64,000 nucleotides of DNA from NCBI GenBank assembly GCA_937922045.1, contig CAKZXA010000068.1, forward strand, positions 1 through 64,000, read 5' to 3'. The notes under the pieces were generated by a model. That model was not told the origin of the DNA, did not search any database, and worked only from the letters and a program-made list of their open reading frames with translations. The number at the start of each line of letters is the position of its first letter. The first letter of the stretch is position 1. A program made the position numbers and the translations under genes. This document shows positions 28,330 through 39,941 of this stretch, piece after piece. This DNA is from an uncultured Acidimicrobiales bacterium (GTDB lineage Bacteria; Actinomycetota; Acidimicrobiia; Acidimicrobiales; SZUA-35).

Positions 28330-28370
28330 TCACTCCAATACACGGTCGTTGTCACTCCAATACACGGTCG
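28330..28370 (+). repeat. Two-copy direct repeat (19 bp, period 22)
   Basis: TCACTCCAATACACGGTCG at 28330..28348 and 28352..28370. Confidence 0.9.
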
Positions 28371-28489
28371 CCAAGATTCGGTGGTCTTTGACTCCCGCAA
28401 CACCGTCAAGGTTTGTTACTATCTAGGTAGTGTTAATTGCCCCTGGTGCGCCTGCTTGACGGCGGGTGGCTGCCACCTTAGGAGTGCCG

Positions 28490-29893
28490 ATGACGATCAC
28501 GCCCGACAATCTTGACCTCAGCCGCTACAAGCTCGGCTGGAGCGACCAGGAAGACTATGTCTTCAAGCCCAAGAAGGGCATCTCGGAGAACATCATCCGG
28601 GAGATGTCATGGATGAAGGGTGAACCGGACTGGATGCTCGACATGCGTCTCAAGTCCTTCCGGCACTTCGAGAAGCGCCCGATGCCCAACTGGGGCGGTG
28701 ATATGTCCGAGATCTTCTTCGACGACATCTTCTACTACATCAAGCCGACCGAGGGTCAGGTTGATAAGTGGGAAGATCTCCCCGACGCCATCAAGGACAC
28801 CTACGAGAAGCTGGGCATCCCCGAGGCCGAACGCAAGTATCTGGCCGGGGTGACCGCCCAGTACGAGTCGGAGGTGGTGTTCCACCGCAACCGCGAAGAT
28901 CTCGAACGTCTTGGCGTGATCTTCTGCGACATGGACACCGCGCTCCGGGAGTACCCGGAGTTGGTCAAGCCCTACTTCGGCAAGATCATCCCGATGAACG
29001 ACAACAAGTTCTCCGCTCTGAACACTTCCGTGTGGTCTGGCGGCTCGTTCATCTATGTTCCTCCCGGCGTTGAGGTCGACCAGCCTCTCCAGGCCTACTT
29101 CCGTATCAACGCCGAGAACATGGGCCAGTTCGAGCGCACCCTCATCATCGCCGACGAGGGTTCGAAGGTGCACTACATCGAGGGCTGTTCAGCTCCGGTC
29201 TACACGTCGGACTCACTCCATTCCGCCGTGGTGGAGATCGTGGTGAAGCCGAGCGCTCACGTTACCTACACCACCATTCAGAACTGGTCGAACAATGTGT
29301 TCAACCTGGTGACCAAGCGAGCTCGTGTCGAAGCCGAAGGTCACATGGAGTGGATCGACGGCAACATCGGCTCCCGCCTCACCATGAAGTACCCGGCCGT
29401 GTGGCTGGTTGGCCCCAAGGCCACAGGTGAGGTCTTGTCGGTGGCCTACTCCGGTGCCGGCCAGCACCAAGACACCGGCGCCAAGATGGTTCACGCCGCT
29501 CCGGAGACAACCTCCAAGATCGTGGCGAAGTCGATCTCGAAAGACGGCGGCCGGTCAAGCTATCGCGGCCTGATCCGGGTTGAGGACGACGCTTATGGCT
29601 GCAAGAGCCATGTGCAATGCGACGCCCTAATCCTCGACGATCATTCGATCAGCGATACCTACCCCTACATGGAGATCGGTGCGCTCGATGCTCAGATCGG
29701 CCACGAGGCGACGGTTTCCAAGGTTGCTGATGAGCAGCTCTTCTACCTGATGAGCCGTGGGCTCTCAGAGGAACAGGCGATTGGCATGGTCGTAAACGGT
29801 TTCATCGAGCCGGTGACCCGCACCTTGCCCATGGAGTACGCCGTGGAGTGGAGCCGACTCATCGAGCTCCAAATGGAAGGTAGCGTCGGCTAG
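28490..29893 (+). CDS. sufB: Fe-S cluster assembly protein SufB
   Basis: [83 protein letters not shown]. Confidence 0.97.
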
Positions 29894-29915
29894 TTCTACG
29901 CTCGCCGAGAACATT

Positions 29916-29941
29916 GCAGCCCACCCGTGAGGGTGGGCTGC
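29916..29941 (+). terminator. Terminator hairpin after sufB
   Basis: GCAGCCCACCC GTGA GGGTGGGCTGC then AGTCGTTTTA. Confidence 0.85.
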
Positions 29942-29997
29942 AGTCGTTTTATGCGACCGGTCGGGTCAAAAAACCCACCGACCTTGTCGAGCGAGGG

Positions 29998-30186
29998 CTA
30001 GGCCTCGCTGTCACCCATACCTGGAATCTTGTCGGCGATGCCTTCAGCCTTGTCGACGGCGCCGGTCACCTTGTCGCCCATGTCGCCCGGTAGTTTGCTG
30101 GCGTGCTCGTCGGCAAGCGCCTTGGCCTGATCGGTGCTGCCTTTGGCCATACCGAACATTTCCTTGGCCTTGTCCAAGAAGCCCAT
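29998..30186 (-). CDS. Small MT0933-like antitoxin-type protein (62 aa)
   Basis: MGFLDKAKEMFGMAKGSTDQAKALADEHASKLPGDMGDKVTGAVDKAEGIADKI; amphipathic Lys/Ala repeat. Confidence 0.6.
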   Translation of the reverse strand: MGFLDKAKEMFGMAKGSTDQAKALADEHASKLPGDMGDKVTGAVDKAEGIADKIPGMGDSEA

Positions 30187-30410
30187 GTGGCTCTCCTTCT
30201 CGTTGGTGAAGATGATTGTTGATGCGTATCGAAACGCGTGCTAAACCCTATCAAGTTCAGTACTTGTCGGTTGGACCTGTGGATTCTGAACGGCTCTGAC
30301 GGCGCGCCGACACGACCGGATCGGCGGGTCGGCGCGGGTTTGTGCGTCGTTTAGATCGCGAATTCATTACGTCGGGAACTTTCACGCCTGGTGGCGTCGT
30401 CTCAATCCAC

Positions 30411-32129
30411 ATGAGTTCGCCCCGGTTTGTCCACCATCCCTTCCCACAGCGAGCTGCTATCGGCATACTGCTGTCGTTGTTCGTCATGCTTGCCGCCTGT
30501 GGCAGTTCCAACGACGACAACGAGGCGACGGATGCCGAAGAGTCGTTCAACGATGTTGATACAGCCTCCGACTCGTCCGACTCCATAACCGACGATGCTG
30601 GCGATGCGATGGAACAAGATTCGAGCAGTGACGGCGATGGCGAAGCAGCCCTCATGGAAAGGGAAGAGGAAGCCGTCGACGACGCCATGGCTGATGCGCC
30701 GGAGGCCGTTTCAGCAGCATCCCGTGTCGCTGAGGACTCGGTGGCCGGCGGGTTCTTCGATTCAGAGCCTGAGGCTGAGCTGAAGGAGAGCAATACCTTC
30801 GAGGACTATGGTGTCCGACCTTTCGTCGAGACCGATGTCGACCCCAAGTCGACCTTCGCTCTTGATGTCGACACCGGTTCGTTCACGGTGGGCAAGCAAT
30901 GGCTTGAGAACGGGGAACTCCCACCGGCTGAGTCGGTGCGGGTCGAAGAATACGTCAACAGCTTTGACTATGACTACCCGGCGCCGAACGATGGCTTGAG
31001 CGTGGTAGCTGAGGGCGGCCCTTCACCGTTCGACGCGAACAATGTGCTGGTCCGGCTTGGCGTGCAGGCCGAGCAGGTCGCCAATGAAGAACGTCCCGAA
31101 GCGGCGCTGACCTTCATCGTTGACACATCTGGCTCTATGGATCGCCACGACCGACTCGGATTGGTAAAGGACTCGCTGACCACGCTAGTCCGAGAACTCG
31201 ATCGCGATGATTCGGTAGCAATCGTGACCTACAGTAACAACGCCGAAGTAATTCTCGAACCAACCAGCGTTGGTCGGAGCGATGAGATCGTTGCCGCCAT
31301 CGAGAGCTTGCAGCCCGACGGCTCGACGAACCTCGAAGCCGGGTTGTTCCGTGGATATGACCTGGCCAACGAGGCCTTCGTCGAAGGCGGGATCAACCGG
31401 GTCGTGCTCGCTTCGGATGGCGTGGCCAATGTGGGCTTAACCGATCCTGATCAACTGGCTGAAACGATTCGTGGCGATGCCGACAAGGGCATTCATCTCG
31501 TAACGGTCGGTGTCGGTATGGGCAACTTCAACGATGTAGTGATGGAGCAGCTGGCCGATCAGGGTGACGGTTTCTACGCCTATGTCAACGATCGCTCCGA
31601 AGCTGATCGCCTGTTCGGCGACGACCTGCTCTCAACCTTGCTCACGGTTGCGATCGACGGCAAAATCCAAGTCGAGTTCAGTCCTGAAGCCGTCGAGACC
31701 TACCGTCTAATCGGCTTCGAGAACAGGGCGGTTCTCGACAAGGACTTCCGCAACGATGACGTTGACGCAGGCGAGCTTGGCGCTGGGCATCAGGTCACCG
31801 CGGTCTATGAGCTACACCTCCACGACGAAACCCGGATCAGCGACTACCTGGGCACCGCTCAGCTGAGGTGGCAGGATCCCGGCTCGGGTGGTGTGATCGA
31901 GACTCGTCTTGAGCTCTCGGCCGGCATCATCGAGAAGAATTGGGCGAATACCAGTGAGGACTTCCGGCTCGCCGTGACTGTTGCATCCTTCGCCGAGTCG
32001 TTGCGATACAGCCCTTACGCAGAGTCGGTTGACCTGGAGCAAATTTTGGCCGAAGCCGAGGCGCTGTCCCATCGTGGGCGGGTGAATGAACTGGTCGACA
32101 TGATCGACCAGGCCAGGAGCCTCCGTTAG
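30411..32129 (+). CDS. VWA-domain (YfbK-like) lipoprotein
   Basis: Lipobox LFVMLAACGSS; MIDAS FIVDTSGSMDRHDRLGLVK; DVDTGSFTVGKQWLENGELPPAESVRVEEYVNSFDYDY. Confidence 0.9.
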   Translation: MSSPRFVHHPFPQRAAIGILLSLFVMLAACGSSNDDNEATDAEESFNDVDTASDSSDSITDDAGDAMEQDSSSDGDGEAALMEREEEAVDDAMADAPEAVSAASRVAEDSVAGGFFDSEPEAELKESNTFEDYGVRPFVETDVDPKSTFALDVDTGSFTVGKQWLENGELPPAESVRVEEYVNSFDYDYPAPNDGLSVVAEGGPSPFDANNVLVRLGVQAEQVANEERPEAALTFIVDTSGSMDRHDRLGLVKDSLTTLVRELDRDDSVAIVTYSNNAEVILEPTSVGRSDEIVAAIESLQPDGSTNLEAGLFRGYDLANEAFVEGGINRVVLASDGVANVGLTDPDQLAETIRGDADKGIHLVTVGVGMGNFNDVVMEQLADQGDGFYAYVNDRSEADRLFGDDLLSTLLTVAIDGKIQVEFSPEAVETYRLIGFENRAVLDKDFRNDDVDAGELGAGHQVTAVYELHLHDETRISDYLGTAQLRWQDPGSGGVIETRLELSAGIIEKNWANTSEDFRLAVTVASFAESLRYSPYAESVDLEQILAEAEALSHRGRVNELVDMIDQARSLR

Positions 32130-32172
32130 GCCGTTAGCTAGGCCGGCGACCCTGGGGAGAGACGCCGTTTAG

Positions 32173-32880
32173 CTAGCAAACAGCCCCGAGGACCAAACTG
32201 ATCATGTCGTCGAGACTGGTCTGACGGTCCTCGGGGCTCATCTGTGAACCGTCGGAGATGAGGTCGGTGACGGTTGCTACCGTCAGCGACTTGATGCCGT
32301 GTTCTGCCGCAACGCCGTAGAGGCCTGCCGCTTCCATCTCGACGGCGAGGAACCCATACTTCTGAAGCAGGTCGAAAGTGTTCCGACCCTCGGGTTCGTA
32401 GAAGAAGTCAGAAGTGAATATGGAACCGATCTGGGCGGTCAGTTTCATTTCGTCGGCCCGGTTGGCAATTGCTCGAAGCATCTCCCAGCTGGCGGTAGCT
32501 GGAAAGTCTCGCCCCCCGAATCGAGCGTTGTTTACGCCCGAGTCTGTGCCGGCGCTCATGGCCACGACGACATCACCCAACTTGATGTCTGGCTGCAGGG
32601 CGCCACACGACCCGATCCGGATGATGCGAGTAACCCCGAAATCCTTGATCAACTCGGTGGCGTAGATCTGGATGGAGGGTATTCCCATGCCTGATCCTTG
32701 AACCGAAACCGGTGTGCCGTTGTAGATGCCAGTGAAGCCCAGCATGTTTCGGATGTCGTTGACCTGACGTACCTCGTCGAGGTAGTTCTCCGCTATGTAC
32801 TTGGCCCTCAGCGGGTCGCCCGGCATGAGTACGATGTCGGCGTAGTCGCCGGGGTCGGCGGCGAGGTGAATGGTGCTCAT
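32173..32880 (-). CDS. deoD: Purine nucleoside phosphorylase
   Basis: MSTIHLAADPGDYADIVLMPGDPLRAKYIAENYL, RIIRIGSCGALQPDIKLGDVVVA, AVEMEAAGLYGVA. Confidence 0.95.
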   Translation of the reverse strand: MSTIHLAADPGDYADIVLMPGDPLRAKYIAENYLDEVRQVNDIRNMLGFTGIYNGTPVSVQGSGMGIPSIQIYATELIKDFGVTRIIRIGSCGALQPDIKLGDVVVAMSAGTDSGVNNARFGGRDFPATASWEMLRAIANRADEMKLTAQIGSIFTSDFFYEPEGRNTFDLLQKYGFLAVEMEAAGLYGVAAEHGIKSLTVATVTDLISDGSQMSPEDRQTSLDDMISLVLGAVC

Positions 32881-33016
32881 GATCTGGTCCTCCAGTAGTT
32901 GGCGGCTGATGGTGTGAGCGCTGACGCTACCGTCATTGCTCACTGTGTTCGAACCCACGCCGACGCGGCGCCAGCCTGCCTACCGATTGATGCCGATTCC
33001 GTGGCAAACTCGATGT

Positions 33017-33382
33017 ATGGCAATGCGGCAAGATTGCAAACACTTTCAGAGTCGAACGTACCCTAGCGGTGACACGATGCGGAAGTGTGCCCTCGATCTG
33101 GCACCCGAGGCCCCGTGGAAATGCCCAGAGGATTGCTCTCGTTTTGAGCGGCGCTTGGCCGATGTGAATTGGCGTCACGGGACGTTGGTTACTCCTCCAA
33201 CCCCTGATCCTCCGGCCTCGATCGGCGATGGTGATTCGATCGCCGCCCTCCTGGACGAGGCCGAGGACATCATCAATGCGGCCGGGCCTTCGATCCGGGC
33301 GGAGGTTGATGAGGAGCGCTGGAAAGAGGAGTCGCGCAAGAAGAAGTCGCGACCGAAATGGTGGCCGTTCGGTCGTCGCTAG
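33017..33382 (+). CDS. Small hypothetical protein with Cys cluster and basic C-terminus
   Basis: MAMRQDCKHFQSRTYPSGDTMRKCALDLAPEAPWKCPEDCSRFERR...KKKSRPKWWPFGRR. Confidence 0.6.
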   Translation: MAMRQDCKHFQSRTYPSGDTMRKCALDLAPEAPWKCPEDCSRFERRLADVNWRHGTLVTPPTPDPPASIGDGDSIAALLDEAEDIINAAGPSIRAEVDEERWKEESRKKKSRPKWWPFGRR

Positions 33383-33403
33383 CACCGTTTCGCACGCCGT
33401 CGG

Positions 33404-33467
33404 TTCACTGTGGCCAAGGCCAACGATTCACTGTGGCCGAGGCCAACGATTCACTGTGGCCAAGGCC
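33404..33467 (+). repeat. 23-bp tandem repeat, about 2.8 copies
   Basis: TTCACTGTGGCC(A/G)AGGCCAACGA at 33404 and 33427, partial at 33450. Confidence 0.9.
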
Positions 33468-33524
33468 TTGGTGTAGGGCTTCTGAAACCGAAGATTTCGC
33501 GGGTTCTGGCGGTAACCTGAAGGG

Positions 33525-34790
33525 GTGAATTCCCCCTTCTTGCCCGTTGATGACGAAGCGCTCCAACGGCTCGGTGATCGGTCAGATCGAAACGCTCTGG
33601 CCGCTGTCGCTGCAGCGATGTCACTGCCGACGACAGAGACCGAACAGTGGCGATACAGCCCGATCGGCGAGCTTGCGCTGGATGGGCTTCAGCCAGCAAC
33701 CGAGCCAACAGGAATAGAACCCCCGGTGTCGGTCATTGCGGGCGGCGCCGCCCGCGCGACCATTATCGATGGCTTCCTGATATCAGCTGAGGTTGCCGAT
33801 GGTTGGCAGGCCAAAGGCGTTTCCATCGCCATCGCTACCGACCGTCTCGTGGATCTCAGCCCCTCCTTGGATACGACATCCGACGATGTGATCGAAAGCT
33901 CCATTTTCGACGCCATGCATTCGGCCTTTTCGCCGGGAGCCATCGTGATCACCGTGCCAGAAGGGGTTGCTGTCGACGAACCCATCATCGTGCGTAACCA
34001 TCACGCAGGCGTTGGCGTCGCCAGTTTCCCGCATCTGATCGTGGAAGCAGGTGAAGCATCGTCGGTGGTGGTGATCGAGATTCAAACCTCTGTTGCCGGC
34101 AAAGCGCTCTCGGTTCCTGTGGTTGAGCTCAAGGCTGGCAAGGCTGCCAACCTCCGCTATGTGGCGGTACAAGAGCACGACACCGACCACTGGCAGATCG
34201 GTCGCCAACTATCGAACATCGACGGTCAAGCCACCTTGAACACCGATGTGGCCGCCTTCGGCGCTCGCTATGCCCGGATCCGCACCGACTCACGCCTGGC
34301 TGGCCGAGGAAGTACGGCCAAGATGTCGGCTGGGTACTACGGCGACGGTGACCAGATACACGACTTCCGAGTGTTCCAGCACCATGATGCACGAGACACC
34401 CGTAGCGATCTGCTGTTCAAGGGAGCGCAGGACGCTCGATCCGGTTCGATCTATACCGGCATGATCCACATTCACGAGGACGGCGCCGGCTCAAATGCCT
34501 TCCAAACGAATCGCAACGTGAAGTTGAGCGATGATGCGTGGGCCTGGTCGGTGCCAAACCTCGAGATCGAGAACAACGAGGTGCATTGTTCACACGCATC
34601 GACGGTAAGCCCGGTCGATGGGGATCAGCAGTTCTATCTACAGGCCCGTGGCGTGCCGCCCGTGGTCGCCGACCGGCTTATCGTGGCTGGGTTCTATCGT
34701 GAGGTAATCGATCGTATGCCGATGCAGGTTCGCGATGAGGTTCGACGCCTCGTCGATGAGAAACTCGACCGGCGAGATGGTGAGCGATGA
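33525..34790 (+). CDS. sufD: Fe-S cluster assembly protein SufD
   Basis: TTETEQWRYSPIGEL, YYGDGDQIHDFRVFQHHDARDTRSDLLFKGAQDARSGSIYTGMIHI, ENNEVHCSHASTVSPVDGDQQFYLQARGV. Confidence 0.94.
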   Translation: MNSPFLPVDDEALQRLGDRSDRNALAAVAAAMSLPTTETEQWRYSPIGELALDGLQPATEPTGIEPPVSVIAGGAARATIIDGFLISAEVADGWQAKGVSIAIATDRLVDLSPSLDTTSDDVIESSIFDAMHSAFSPGAIVITVPEGVAVDEPIIVRNHHAGVGVASFPHLIVEAGEASSVVVIEIQTSVAGKALSVPVVELKAGKAANLRYVAVQEHDTDHWQIGRQLSNIDGQATLNTDVAAFGARYARIRTDSRLAGRGSTAKMSAGYYGDGDQIHDFRVFQHHDARDTRSDLLFKGAQDARSGSIYTGMIHIHEDGAGSNAFQTNRNVKLSDDAWAWSVPNLEIENNEVHCSHASTVSPVDGDQQFYLQARGVPPVVADRLIVAGFYREVIDRMPMQVRDEVRRLVDEKLDRRDGER

Positions 34791-35101
34791 CTCGCCTCGA
34801 TGTGTGCGCTCTCGACGATCTCGAAGCCGACAGTGCCAAGCGATTTGATGTTGATGGTTACCGCTTCGCCGTTGTTCGCCTAGGCGACGACGTCTATGTG
34901 ATCGGTGACCGTTGTTCCCATGCCGATTTCTCCCTGGCTGAAGGTGAAGTCGACGTCAAGGAAAAAACCCTCGAGTGCTGGAAGCACGGTTCGACGTTTT
35001 CTCTTGTCGACGGTGAACCGACCTGTTTCCCCGCAATCAAACCTGTTCCCGTCTATGAAGCCGCGGTCGAAAAGGGCCGGGTTGTGGTGGTGGTGTCATG
35101 A
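34787..35101 (+). CDS. Rieske-type ferredoxin
   Basis: CSHADFSLAEGEVDVKEKTLECWKHGSTFSLVDG (CxH...CxxH). Confidence 0.93.
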   Translation: MTRLDVCALDDLEADSAKRFDVDGYRFAVVRLGDDVYVIGDRCSHADFSLAEGEVDVKEKTLECWKHGSTFSLVDGEPTCFPAIKPVPVYEAAVEKGRVVVVVS

Positions 35102-35886
35102 CAACGTCCGAACTCGTCATCTCAGGCCTGCGGGCTTCCGTTGGCAGTACTGAAATCCTCAAGGGCATCGATCTAACGATCCGTTCCGGTGAAGTGCACG
35201 CCATCATGGGGCCCAACGGTTCCGGTAAGTCGACGTTATCCCACGTCGTGATGGGCAAGCCGGGCTATGAGGTGACCGCCGGGTCGGTGACGCTGAACGG
35301 CGTCGAGATTCTTGGTCTCCCAACCTGGCAGCGGGCTCAGGCCGGGCTCTTCCTCGCCATGCAGTACCCAACCGAGGTTCCTGGAGTTTCTCTTAGCGAT
35401 GTTCTCTCGGTGGCCTACCAGGCAGGGGAGCGGTCGGCCGACGAGCTCGATGATGTGCTGAAGGCCGAAGCCGAACGAATTGGGTTTGACCATGATCTTT
35501 TGCGACGCTCTCTGAACGTCGACATGAGCGGTGGCGAGAAGAAGCGCAACGAGACCCTGCAACTCGGTGTGCTGAAGCCGAAGATTGCGATTCTTGACGA
35601 GCTCGACTCGGGACTCGACGTCGACGCGCTTCGTCAGGTGTCGCGGCGGGTCGAGGCCGCCACCGAAGAAGACGGCCTTGGTGTTCTTGTCATCACGCAC
35701 TACAGCCGGCTTCTCAACGAGCTTCGGGCCGATCGGATTCATGTCCTGGCCCAGGGGCGAATCGTCGACTCGGGAGGCCCGGAAATGGCTGAGGCGCTCG
35801 AATCTTCGGGCTACGCGGCCTATGGCGGAGATGCGGAAGCGGTTCCAGCGGCCGCCGCCGATCCGTTCGCAGATCCCTTCGCCTAG
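35098..35886 (+). CDS. sufC: SufC ATPase (copy 1)
   Basis: IMGPNGSGKSTLSHVVMG, MSGGEKKRNETLQLGVLKPKIAILDELDSGLDVDALR, VITHYSRLL; Ala/Pro-rich C-terminal extension. Confidence 0.95.
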   Translation: MTTSELVISGLRASVGSTEILKGIDLTIRSGEVHAIMGPNGSGKSTLSHVVMGKPGYEVTAGSVTLNGVEILGLPTWQRAQAGLFLAMQYPTEVPGVSLSDVLSVAYQAGERSADELDDVLKAEAERIGFDHDLLRRSLNVDMSGGEKKRNETLQLGVLKPKIAILDELDSGLDVDALRQVSRRVEAATEEDGLGVLVITHYSRLLNELRADRIHVLAQGRIVDSGGPEMAEALESSGYAAYGGDAEAVPAAAADPFADPFA

Positions 35887-35901
35887 TTCCGGTCGTCTCG
35901 G

Positions 35902-36564
35902 ATGCTCGCCGCCGCTATCGTCGTTGCTGCTGGAAGCGGTGAGCGATTCGGCGGCCTCAAACAGTTTCTTCTGATCGACGGTGAGCGTCTTGTCGACCGG
36001 GTTGTTCGCACCGCCTCGCAACATTGCGGGCAGGTGATCGTTGTGCTTCCCGAAGGAACTGAATGGGATGGACCTGAGGTAGCCGCTGTAGCTACCGGGG
36101 GAGCTCGTCATGCCGATTCGGTCCGGCGTGGCGTGGAGGCGATGATGCAGCTTGCGGCCATCTCAGGGTCGACCCCAGATGTAGTGGTGCTCGCCAGCTC
36201 TTCACATCCATTGGCGAGTGCTGGACTCTACGGCCGGGTGATCGGCGCGATAGCTGAAGGGGCTGACGCTGCGGCACCGATGGGTCTCCTGGCCGACGCG
36301 GTGAAGGAGCGAGATGGGGAGCGGGTGCTGCGCACGGTCGCCAAGGCGCAACTGGTCACGGCCCAGGCTCCCTGCGCTTTCAGCGTTGATGTGTTGAGAA
36401 CCGTGTTGGCATCCGGCGATTCAGCACCGGAAGAACTCGAACTGGTCGAGCGTTCCGGGGGAGTGGTCGTTCTGGTCGAAGGCGAGGCCACCAATATCCA
36501 TATAACAACCGAACTTGAGCTGGCGATGGCTCGACGCCTGGTCGGCCTCGTTGAGGCCGAGTGA
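35902..36564 (+). CDS. IspD-like cytidylyltransferase, divergent
   Basis: AAIVVAAGSGERFGGLKQFLLIDGERLVDRVVR; typical xHDAARP motif reads LASSSHPL; NIKxT reads NIHIT. Confidence 0.7.
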   Translation: MLAAAIVVAAGSGERFGGLKQFLLIDGERLVDRVVRTASQHCGQVIVVLPEGTEWDGPEVAAVATGGARHADSVRRGVEAMMQLAAISGSTPDVVVLASSSHPLASAGLYGRVIGAIAEGADAAAPMGLLADAVKERDGERVLRTVAKAQLVTAQAPCAFSVDVLRTVLASGDSAPEELELVERSGGVVVLVEGEATNIHITTELELAMARRLVGLVEAE

Positions 36565-36600
36565 GGCTGGAGGTGCAACGGGGCTTGGCGCTGAGCTCGC

Positions 36601-37302
36601 CTAGTGGCTGTGGAGCCCCGAGGTGCGAAGAAACGCGTTCTCGTTGAGCGATTCGATGACGCGGCGTCCGTCGGCGAACCGAACCCGATGGACCGAGGCG
36701 TGGGATGCTCGGAAGAACATGTCTACGCCGAGCCCCAGCAGCTCAGCGAGGTAGGCATTGATAACGCCGCCGTGGCAGGCAACGACGATCGTCTCGCCAG
36801 GGTGGCTTGTCACCGCGGCCTCAACGGCATAGCCAACTCGCCGTCTGAAATCGAGCGACGACTCGCTCTCGGGAAAGCTGTCCCAGCGCCGGGTCTGAGC
36901 GAACCGCTCGCGCGCCCCTTCCAGAATCTTCGGGCCCAGAATGTCGCGAGGCCGAGAGTCGAGAGGCAGCTGGCCGTAGAAATGAAACTCGGCCAGCTGT
37001 TCAACGACTTCGACGTCGAGATCGTGGTGCCCGGCGATGGGCAGGGCGGTGTTGTGAGCCCGCGAAAGGTTTGAGCTGTAGACCGCCGATACCGGCTCAT
37101 CGGCCAGGTAGTCGCCCACAGCCTGAGCCTGTTTGAGGCCGAGGTCTGAAAGTGGCGGATCGATCCAATCCCCGTTGGTCGAATTCTCTGGGTCGGGCCA
37201 GTCCTGCTGGCCGTGGCGAACGAGGATAAGCGAGCCGGCTTCGGGGTGGCCGCTAAGAAAGGCTCGTTCGATGGGGGAGATAGTTGGCTTAGGTTCGGTC
37301 AC
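36601..37302 (-). CDS. Histidine phosphatase (phosphoglycerate mutase-like)
   Basis: LILVRHGQQDWPD, AVYSSNLSRAHNTALPIAGH, VVACHGGVINAYL. Confidence 0.9.
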   Translation of the reverse strand: MTEPKPTISPIERAFLSGHPEAGSLILVRHGQQDWPDPENSTNGDWIDPPLSDLGLKQAQAVGDYLADEPVSAVYSSNLSRAHNTALPIAGHHDLDVEVVEQLAEFHFYGQLPLDSRPRDILGPKILEGARERFAQTRRWDSFPESESSLDFRRRVGYAVEAAVTSHPGETIVVACHGGVINAYLAELLGLGVDMFFRASHASVHRVRFADGRRVIESLNENAFLRTSGLHSH

Positions 37303-37342
37303 AGGTTCCTGGTATCGGCTCGCGCCATGGAGATGGTAAGCA

Positions 37343-37837
37343 TCATTGGGCGGTGTCGTTGCGTTGTTCGTCGATGGCCTGCGTCAACGTATTCCAGCCC
37401 AGGGTGGCACATTTGATGCGCACCGGAAATTTGACGACGCCTCGCAAGGCTTCAAGATCGCCGAGAGGAAGGTCCCTCGTAGCGCTGCTTTCTACGCTGG
37501 TGACACTGTCGTCGCCGCCGATGTCGGTCTCATGAATCGACATCATCGTCTTGAACGAGTTGGTCAACTCCTCGACCTCGGTCAGTGTTTTCCCCTTCAC
37601 CGCGGCTGACATCATCGAGGCCGACGCCTGCGAGATTGAGCACCCCTGGCCGCCGATCTTGATGTCGGTAACGGTGTCATTGTCGTCGACGTTGACGAAG
37701 ACGACGATCTCATCGCCACAGAGGGGGTTGAAACCCTCTGTCCGACGAGCTGGAGGGGCCGGAAGTTCTCCCTTGTTGCGAGGACTCCGGTAGTGATCGA
37801 GGATGATTTCTCGGTACAGGTCTTCGAGACCGGACAC
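37343..37837 (-). CDS. sufU: SUF scaffold / sulfurtransferase SufU
   Basis: LYREIILDHYRSPRNKGEL, NPLCGDEIVVFVNV, GQGCSISQASASMM, RIKCATLGWNTL. Confidence 0.95.
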   Translation of the reverse strand: MSGLEDLYREIILDHYRSPRNKGELPAPPARRTEGFNPLCGDEIVVFVNVDDNDTVTDIKIGGQGCSISQASASMMSAAVKGKTLTEVEELTNSFKTMMSIHETDIGGDDSVTSVESSATRDLPLGDLEALRGVVKFPVRIKCATLGWNTLTQAIDEQRNDTAQ

Positions 37838-37864
37838 GGTTGATACTGCCTTTCGAAAGCGGGC

Positions 37865-39115
37865 TTAGATAGCGAAGAAGTCTCGGGCTGCGACCAAAGA
37901 CTCGGCGAGGGCGTCGACGTCGTCTCGGTCGTTATAGAGATAGAAGCTGGCTCTTGCGGTGGCGGCAACGCCGAAGTGCCTCATCAACGGCTTGGCGCAG
38001 TGATGGCCGGGACGGATACACACCGCGTGTTCGTCCAGAATCTGGCTGACATCGTGGGCGTGGACGTTCTCCAACTCGATCGAGAGCACGCCGCCGCGCT
38101 CATGCGGCTCAGCTGGACCGAAAATCCGAATAGATGATCCAAGGTCGGCGGTGAGTTTGCGCAGAGCGTAGGCCGTGAGCTCAACCTCATGCTGGCGGAT
38201 GGCATCCATGCCGATCGATTCGAGGTAGTCGATGGCGGCGCCAAGTCCGATGGCTTCAACGATCGGCGGTGTGCCAGCCTCGAACTTTGCCGGGGCGACG
38301 TCTGGCGTGAATCCTTCGGTGGTCACGTTGAGGATCATTCCGCCACCGCCAAGGAAGGGAGGCATTGCGGCGAGATGCTCAGCCCGTCCCCAAAGGACGC
38401 CGATTCCGGTGGGGCCGAGCATTTTGTGACCGCTGAAGACCACGAAGTCGGCACCCATCGCGGTGACGTTGGTGGACATGTGTGGGACGGACTGACACGC
38501 ATCGACCACAACGATGGCGCCTGCGGCGTGGGCCGCTGAAACTAACTGATCGAGTTGTGTCAGGGTGCCGGTTACGTTGCTCATAGCGGTCACTGAAAGA
38601 GCTTTCGCCCCGTCGAGGAGGCGATCCAGCTCGGACAGATCCAGCCTGCCGTCATCGTGCACCGGGATCCATCGAATCTCGAGTTCACGCTCGGCCGCCA
38701 GCATCTGCCAGGGCACGATATTTGCATGATGTTCGAGCATCGAGAGCACGACAGCGTCGCCGGGCTTGAGGTTCGCTCGCCCCCAGCTGCCTACGACGAG
38801 GTTCAGTGCCTCGGTGGCGTTCTTTGTAAACACCACTTCGTCAGGGGACGAAGCGCCGATGAAGCCGGCGACCCTTTTCCGTGCCCCTTCGTAGAGATTT
38901 GTTGCCCGCTCGGCCAGCTGGTAAACGCCTCGATGCACGTTGGCATAGCTCGTAAGGTAGGCGTTGTCCATCGCGTCGAGGACCTGCTGAGGCCGTTGTG
39001 ACGAGGCGGCTGAGTCGAGGAAAACTAGCCGGCGTCCCGCTTGTGTCTGGTCCAGGATCGGGAAGTCTTTACGTATCTTGGCAACGTCAAACCCCGTGGA
39101 GTCAGACGATGTCAT
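37865..39115 (-). CDS. sufS: Cysteine desulfurase SufS
   Basis: FLDSAASSQRPQQVLDAM, VVVDACQSVPHMSTNVTAMGADFVVFSGHKMLGPTGIGVLWGR, IRPGHHCAKPLMRHF. Confidence 0.96.
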   Translation of the reverse strand: MTSSDSTGFDVAKIRKDFPILDQTQAGRRLVFLDSAASSQRPQQVLDAMDNAYLTSYANVHRGVYQLAERATNLYEGARKRVAGFIGASSPDEVVFTKNATEALNLVVGSWGRANLKPGDAVVLSMLEHHANIVPWQMLAAERELEIRWIPVHDDGRLDLSELDRLLDGAKALSVTAMSNVTGTLTQLDQLVSAAHAAGAIVVVDACQSVPHMSTNVTAMGADFVVFSGHKMLGPTGIGVLWGRAEHLAAMPPFLGGGGMILNVTTEGFTPDVAPAKFEAGTPPIVEAIGLGAAIDYLESIGMDAIRQHEVELTAYALRKLTADLGSSIRIFGPAEPHERGGVLSIELENVHAHDVSQILDEHAVCIRPGHHCAKPLMRHFGVAATARASFYLYNDRDDVDALAESLVAARDFFAI

Positions 39116-39888
39116 TTGAAACTCTCGTAGCCGTCTGTTTCGAGCTGTTTAGCGAGCTCTGGTCCACCGGAGGCAACGATCCGACCATCGACCAGGACAT
39201 GGACGTGGTCTGGTTCGAGATAGTCGAGGAGACGCTGGTAGTGGGTAATGGCCAGCACCCCGAGTTGAGGCCGCTCGGCCTGGATGGCCTTTACACCTTT
39301 GGCCACCGTCTGGAGAGCGTCGATGTCGAGGCCTGAATCGGTTTCATCCAGGATTGCGAGCTCGGGTTCGAGCACCGCCATCTGGAGAACCTCGTTTCGT
39401 TTCTTTTCGCCGCCAGAGAAACCTTCATTGACGTAGCGCTCCATAAAGGCGGAGTCCATCTCTAGGCGCTCCATCCAATCCATTAGAGAGAGTCGCAGCT
39501 CGAGCACGCTCATCTCGATGCCCTTGCGGGCGCTGAGCGCTTGGCGCAGGAAGTTGAGTACCGAAACCCCGGCGATTTCCTGCGGATACTGGAAGGCCAG
39601 GAAGATACCGGCCTTAGCCCGCACCTCGGTGTCCCAATCAGTGATGTCATCGCCCTGGTAGAGGAGCCGCCCATCTGTCACCTCGTACTCGGGCGAGGCG
39701 AGCAGCGTGGACGCGAGGGTGGACTTTCCCGAACCGTTTGGACCCATCAGAGCATGGATCTCGCCCGGTCGGATGGTGAGCGAGACCCCGTGCAGGATGG
39801 AGACCTGCTCGCCTGTCTCAGGATCGGGCTCAGCGGTGGCGGCATGGAGATCGTCGATCTCAAACAGAACGTCGTCGGACATGGCCAT
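39112..39888 (-). CDS. sufC: SufC ATPase (copy 2)
   Basis: LMGPNGSGKSTLASTLLASPEYEVTDGRLLYQG, FSGGEKKRNEVLQMAVLEPELAILDETDSGLDIDALQ. Confidence 0.96.
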   Translation of the reverse strand: MAMSDDVLFEIDDLHAATAEPDPETGEQVSILHGVSLTIRPGEIHALMGPNGSGKSTLASTLLASPEYEVTDGRLLYQGDDITDWDTEVRAKAGIFLAFQYPQEIAGVSVLNFLRQALSARKGIEMSVLELRLSLMDWMERLEMDSAFMERYVNEGFSGGEKKRNEVLQMAVLEPELAILDETDSGLDIDALQTVAKGVKAIQAERPQLGVLAITHYQRLLDYLEPDHVHVLVDGRIVASGGPELAKQLETDGYESFK

Positions 39889-39907
39889 ATTGTACGGGCG
39901 TTCGACC

Positions 39908-39941
39908 CCGAATTAACACAAGACGCGTAGTGTTAATTCGG
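39908..39941. promoter_or_regulatory. Putative operator for the sufC2-sufS-sufU operon
   Basis: Perfect 12-bp inverted repeat CCGAATTAACAC-N10-GTGTTAATTCGG; GTAGTGTTAATT recurs upstream of sufB at 28427..28438. Confidence 0.65.

Follow-up and report, generated by a model that had tools for sequence, protein, structure and literature searches.

SufR proteins control the genes for iron–sulfur (Fe–S) cluster assembly in several bacterial groups. The SufR box of Streptomyces avermitilis and cyanobacteria is CAAC-N6-GTTG (PMC11995493, PMC8593673). In Mycobacterium tuberculosis, SufR (Rv1460) is a suf repressor with a leaderless start and three essential cysteines, C203, C216 and C244 (PMC6034842). 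The characterised SufR proteins repress their targets (PMC6034842, PMC8593673), and it is the holo-form that represses (PMC8593673). The canonical position of the SufR gene is directly 5' of sufB. A literature search, with subscription journals outside its coverage, found no paper naming both SufR and Acidimicrobiia. The stretch of DNA analysed here (the window) comprised 64,000 nucleotides of an uncultured Acidimicrobiales bacterium.

The suf genes of the window were arranged in three arms (28466–39115). The first was sufB (28490–29893, forward strand; TIGR01980, 706.7 bits vs a cut-off of 346.4). The arm sufC2-sufS-sufU was encoded on the reverse strand and started with sufC2, the gene of a second SufC ATPase (39112–39882; TIGR01978), followed by the cysteine desulfurase gene sufS (37865–39115; TIGR01979) and sufU (37343–37837; TIGR01994), all over the cut-off. 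The third arm, on the forward strand, consisted of sufD (33525–34790; SUFBD_core), a gene for a Rieske-type [2Fe-2S] protein (34787–35101; PF00355, over the cut-off) and sufC1 (35098–35886; TIGR01978, over the cut-off). Two different sufC genes were thus present, one with sufD and the Rieske gene and one with sufS and sufU. Unrelated ORFs, a long lipoprotein-like one and a purine-phosphorylase-like one, separated sufB and sufD.

An earlier note on this DNA proposed that an inverted repeat upstream of sufC2 is a suf operator. The repeat CCGAATTAACAC-N10-GTGTTAATTCGG (34 bp, with 12-bp arms) was located at exactly 39908–39941, and the 12-mer held to be common to the sufB and sufC2 promoters, GTAGTGTTAATT, was indeed present at both 28427–28438 and 39927–39938. 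Perfect inverted repeats of at least 12 bp occurred twice in the window vs 0.2 expected per 64 kb in first-order Markov simulations; a bare 12-bp inverted repeat is only mildly unusual and by itself weak evidence. The half-site TAGTGTTAATT was found three times in the window at up to one mismatch, vs 0.12 expected, and all three copies were located at the two suf promoters. The half-site common to the sufB and sufC2 promoters is therefore not there by chance. In the 4.88-Mb genome, the repeat at 39908–39941 was the sole match of AATTAACAC-N10-GTGTTAATT at up to three mismatches. The other perfect repeat of the window, TGCAGCCCACCC-N4-GGGTGGGCTGCA followed by GTCGTTTT (29915–29942), was located 21 bp past the sufB stop codon and is probably the sufB terminator. 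The sequence TCACTCCAATACACGGTCG occurred as two identical copies, separated by 22 bp, 5' of the sufB operator (28330–28370).

Comparison with relatives defined a 26-bp palindromic operator with the core consensus ATTAnCACTAY-N4-RTAGTGnTAAT, or ATTNNNNCTAY-N4-RTAGNNNNAAT when sites at other promoters were included. Upstream of sufC2-sufS-sufU it occupied 39912–39937, the core of the 34-bp repeat; the CCG/CGG at the outer ends of the 12-bp arms falls outside the conserved element. At the sufB promoter it occupied 28412–28437 (TTTGTTACTAT-CTAG-GTAGTGTTAAT). The two sites had two mismatches and one mismatch, respectively, to the wider consensus. The sufC2-side core was imperfect near its centre, with CTTG in place of rTAG, and the rTTG form was also found in the closest relatives. 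The position weight matrix scores were alike, 27.7 for the sufC2 site and 28.0 for the sufB site, so the proposed ranking into a strong and a weak site has no ground. The left half of the sufB site, which had been considered the poorer one, is ATTGTTACTAT; it resembles an extended −10 and is conserved in that form throughout the order. The two arms named in the earlier note both carried sites, but that description was incomplete, as it left out the arm sufD-Rieske-sufC1, where no operator was detectable upstream of sufD (best match with six mismatches).

Among 397 genomes of the order, the pattern TTAACACTAY-N4-RTAGTGTTAA was found at up to two mismatches in 33, vs one for the reversed-pattern control. 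The matches that were fetched were located 5' of sufC2-sufS, sufB or sufD, with few exceptions. Matches of a loose first pattern away from suf genes (L008–L012, L015) were taken as chance. For a set of 80 sufC2 loci chosen by protein similarity alone, 77 had usable upstream sequence. The element was present 5' of sufC2, within approximately 220 bp of the start, exactly in 28 of these, with up to one mismatch in 64 and with up to two mismatches in 72, vs 0/1,396 control windows of equal size at up to two mismatches. The sufB test covered 27 loci from 30 genomes, most of them without a match in the earlier narrow search, and yielded the element at up to two mismatches in 19 loci vs 0/506 control windows. 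Some of the tested loci overlapped the set used for building the consensus; the controls, however, were drawn from the tested loci themselves. An operator 5' of sufD was present in relatives (L055, L056, L146, L156, L158–L160, L163 and L164). In genomes searched as a whole, most sites were at sufB, sufC2, sufD or mrp/sufR. Relatives thus keep the operator 5' of their suf genes, and it is almost absent from other places. A random genome-wide distribution, or a lack of conservation at suf genes, had been named beforehand as counting against the operator; the idea survived on both points, and the conservation at the suf genes of relatives (72/77 sufC2 loci, 19/27 sufB loci) supports an operator common to the sufB and sufC2-sufS-sufU promoters. 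Judged from sequence conservation, the inverted repeat is a genuine control site in the DNA and is found in front of Fe–S assembly genes throughout a bacterial class.

A few sites were found at other genes. In one family, the operator was located approximately 10 bp 5' of a gene for an FTR1 iron permease (L013, 1501–1524; genome G109). In two families, it preceded a gene for a two-domain rhodanese-type sulfurtransferase (L014, 1501–1524, and L148, 1501–1526; genomes G125 and G007). These genes may be lineage-specific additional members of the regulon. A gene between the MBL-fold gene and sufC2 in two relatives (L005, L006) was considered as a divergent regulator and rejected; it reads as a fatty-acid desaturase gene and is on the same strand.

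The lead to a regulator came from an operator match in a genome of the window's own family (L045, G556), located between mrp/apbC and a divergent gene for a 242-aa helix-turn-helix (HTH) protein. The orthologue in the window's genome (contig C32, 107845–108567) was also divergent from mrp, and its product combined an HTH_20 domain with MetOD1 at the C-terminus. A C-X12-C-X32-C arrangement was present in nearly every orthologue, with C192, C205 and C238 invariant in the alignment. A palindrome of the same class (up to one mismatch), usually of the form CCTAY-N4-RTAGG, was present in the interval between mrp and the regulator gene in 19 of 30 regulator loci. Elsewhere in those 106 kb, no match was found even at two mismatches. 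In further regulator loci, the interval contained the palindrome in 14 of 23; over a third of the regulator loci were without a clear site. The operator was not found in the mrp–regulator promoter of the window's genome (best match with six mismatches), nor in those of two genomes of the same genus, so autoregulation was not seen in the window's genome. Hybrid sites with one CACTA and one CCTA half (e.g. L089, L102, L163) suggest that both forms are read by one protein. The AlphaFold model of the regulator was of moderate quality (pLDDT 72), and searches of the PDB by sequence and fold yielded generic ArsR-type HTH matches only, the fold matches at weak E-values. The SufR-like HTH_20 protein encoded divergently from mrp is the most likely binder of the operator. 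In other genomes (L118, L122, L124), the gene divergent from mrp encoded a protein that also has conserved cysteines but belongs to another HTH_20 clade, and the mrp interval of L124 contained a different palindrome (GCACGGT/ACCGTGC).

Beside nearer paralogues, a profile of the regulator matched genes directly 5' of sufB in other actinobacteria (E 1e-7 to 1e-17). The alignment of the regulator with canonical actinomycete SufR extended over nearly the full length (hhalign, 99.5%, E 1e-22, 26% identity), and all three regulator cysteines matched the canonical cysteines one-to-one. The protein thus has a SufR-type N-terminal winged HTH with full-length homology to sufB-adjacent SufR, and counterparts of the three C-terminal cluster-ligand cysteines of SufR. 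In an unrooted tree, the Acidimicrobiia proteins formed their own supported clade; other HTH_20 families separated it from canonical SufR, so that these proteins are outside the canonical actinomycete SufR clade. The regulator was below the TIGR02702 equivalog cut-off (23.2 vs 178.8 bits); this model describes cyanobacterial SufR and was passed in only 1 of 14 control genomes, so it is not decisive for actinobacteria. The TIGR02702 search for SufR yielded sub-threshold matches only, among them L058, which was subsequently recognised as the regulator. CAAC-N6-GTTG was seen 5' of canonical sufR in L126 and L130, and the operator described here has different inner blocks, ACTA/CCTA-N6-TAGT/TAGG. 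From these alignments and the tree, the regulator is homologous to SufR, not canonical SufR, and it probably works like SufR. In another actinobacterial family, SufR-like genes were divergent from sufB (L106, L108; genomes G578, G645), and the interval was without a clear palindrome.

The system shares several features with SufR of S. avermitilis and cyanobacteria: an HTH protein with C-terminal cysteines, suf genes as targets, a site at the regulator's own promoter (here in many relatives), a spacing of N6 between inner four-base blocks (ACTA-N6-TAGT) and, at some promoters, an operator that covers the −10. It can be distinguished by its inner blocks (ACTA/CCTA vs CAAC), its separate clade, a regulator gene beside mrp rather than 5' of sufB, and suf genes divided among arms that have separate sites, save for the sufD arm of the window. 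The system also resembles that of M. tuberculosis SufR: the first two of the three cysteines are likewise 12 residues apart, a leaderless start is predicted and suf would be repressed. The second spacing differs (C-X12-C-X32-C vs C-X12-C-X27-C in Rv1460), and in M. tuberculosis a single suf operon begins with the SufR gene.

The distribution of site and regulator was compared in the 27 genomes with a sufB locus. The sufB site was present in 19 of 22 genomes with the regulator and in none of five without (Fisher p = 0.0007), a value to be read with the facts that two of the five (G001, G027) were picked knowing of the absence and that related genomes are not independent; the three blind regulator-lacking genomes alone gave p ~0.009. 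Incompleteness of metagenome-assembled genomes can hide a gene, which bears on the counts of regulator absence. Two of the sufB genes (L279, G027 C1:2011581; L280, G087) had 43% identity to sufB of the window, and this distance makes G027 and G087 less informative. In these genomes, other SUF genes seem to have taken the place of the native ones. G027 also had neither the regulator orthologue nor any operator, and its sufB was adjoined by a gene for an HTH protein of the SufR-like superfamily. No site was found genome-wide at one mismatch in G027, G001 and 11 actinobacteria outside the class, while regulator-bearing genomes contained one to six sites in the same search. Three of the contrasts fell within families (f2, f19 and f63), which suggests independent losses. 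The sufB sites track the regulator gene. One regulator very probably serves both arms, as the earlier note had proposed.

The position of the operator relative to the promoters bears on the mode of action. The sufC2 ATG at 39882, where a putatively leaderless transcript would start, was preceded at a distance of 6 nt by a putative −10, TACAAT (39889–39894, reverse strand). A TAnnnT hexamer was present 4–9 nt before the sufC2 start in 73/73 operator-bearing promoters of relatives (6–7 nt in 65/73) vs 3.4% of controls, a spacing as expected of leaderless transcripts. The hexamer began at the operator end in 27 cases and 12–16 bp beyond it in 42, which places the operator between −35 and −10, or over the −35. 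At sufB, a simple consensus promoter scan found nothing; a putative extended −10, TGTTACTAT (28414–28422, forward strand), is located inside the left half of the operator, and relatives had the corresponding TGnTACTAT at their own sufB sites. TAGAAT, likely the −10, was contained in the operator's right half in many regulator promoters. The operator thus appears to overlap the promoter in varying registers, which suits occlusion of RNA polymerase better than activation. The same SufR-like protein could instead bind as an activator in its apo-form, and the operator over the −35 region in many sufC2 promoters is indeed at the spot used by class II activators. We consider this unlikely, as an activator would need a constant register, whereas the operator of other relatives is between −35 and −10 and its left half at sufB contains the apparent −10; the SufR proteins characterised so far are, moreover, repressors.

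The binder might also belong to the Rrf2 family, whose members govern suf/isc genes in many bacteria. The IscR and RirA proteins of this family likewise exert Fe–S-dependent control, but they are unrelated to the SufR-like protein and their operators differ in sequence. The genome encodes one clear Rrf2 protein over the cut-off (contig C42), which resembles the IscR, CymR and Xanthomonas SUF regulator models below their cut-offs and retains, from a reading of its sequence, two of three IscR-type cysteines. Its gene is linked to neither suf nor mrp, and no site was seen by eye in its promoter. None of the sites examined adjoined an Rrf2 gene, whereas many adjoined the SufR-like gene, which makes an Rrf2/IscR-type binder improbable. 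Of the SufR/Rrf2-type regulator suggested in the earlier note, the SufR-type part fits the protein on C32, and the Rrf2 part found no link to suf or mrp.

The location of the repeat between two same-strand genes, and the mild rarity of bare repeats this long, would agree with a chance repeat, or with a transcription terminator or an RNA hairpin that belongs to the MBL-fold gene upstream. This is very improbable: no T tract follows 39908–39941, the same element occurs at sufB and in many other, unrelated upstream contexts, and the predicted sufC2 transcript starts downstream of the repeat, which would therefore act as DNA. A CIRCE-like element bound by HrcA (CIRCE is TTAGCACTC-N9-GAGTGCTAA 5' of groES or dnaK) is hardly credible, since, despite the resemblance of the half-site TTAGCACT and the TTAGCACTA half-sites in many relatives, the half-sites are 3 bp closer than in CIRCE, A and not C follows ACT, halves of the CCTA and TTACTA types are tolerated, and the genes downstream of the sites are suf genes rather than groES or dnaK.

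We therefore favour, with a probability of roughly 0.83, a reading in which the repeat serves as operator for a SufR-like, Fe–S-sensing repressor through which both arms are co-induced. The sequences themselves show the element, how well it is conserved, that it is placed over promoter elements and that it co-occurs with the regulator gene; binding, repression and sensing we infer. A dimer of the HTH_20 protein encoded divergently from mrp/apbC would bind the 26-bp palindrome and so cover the core promoters of sufB and sufC2-sufS-sufU. The three conserved cysteines probably carry an Fe–S cluster. By analogy with characterised SufR, the holo-protein would block RNA polymerase when clusters are plentiful; when clusters are short, under iron limitation or oxidative or nitrosative stress, it would be released and both arms would be induced together.

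At about even odds, this control extends across the Acidimicrobiia, with a distinct clade of Fe–S sensors paired with mrp/apbC and a non-canonical operator, half-site types (CACTA, CCTA, TTACTA) that tune the arms and the regulator, and an extension to the rhodanese-type sulfurtransferase and FTR1 in some lineages. A regulator, its operator and its regulon can here be named for an entire class of actinobacteria, most of them uncultured, and the regulator–operator pair offers naturally occurring operator variants in which to follow how a SufR-type protein shifts its DNA specificity.
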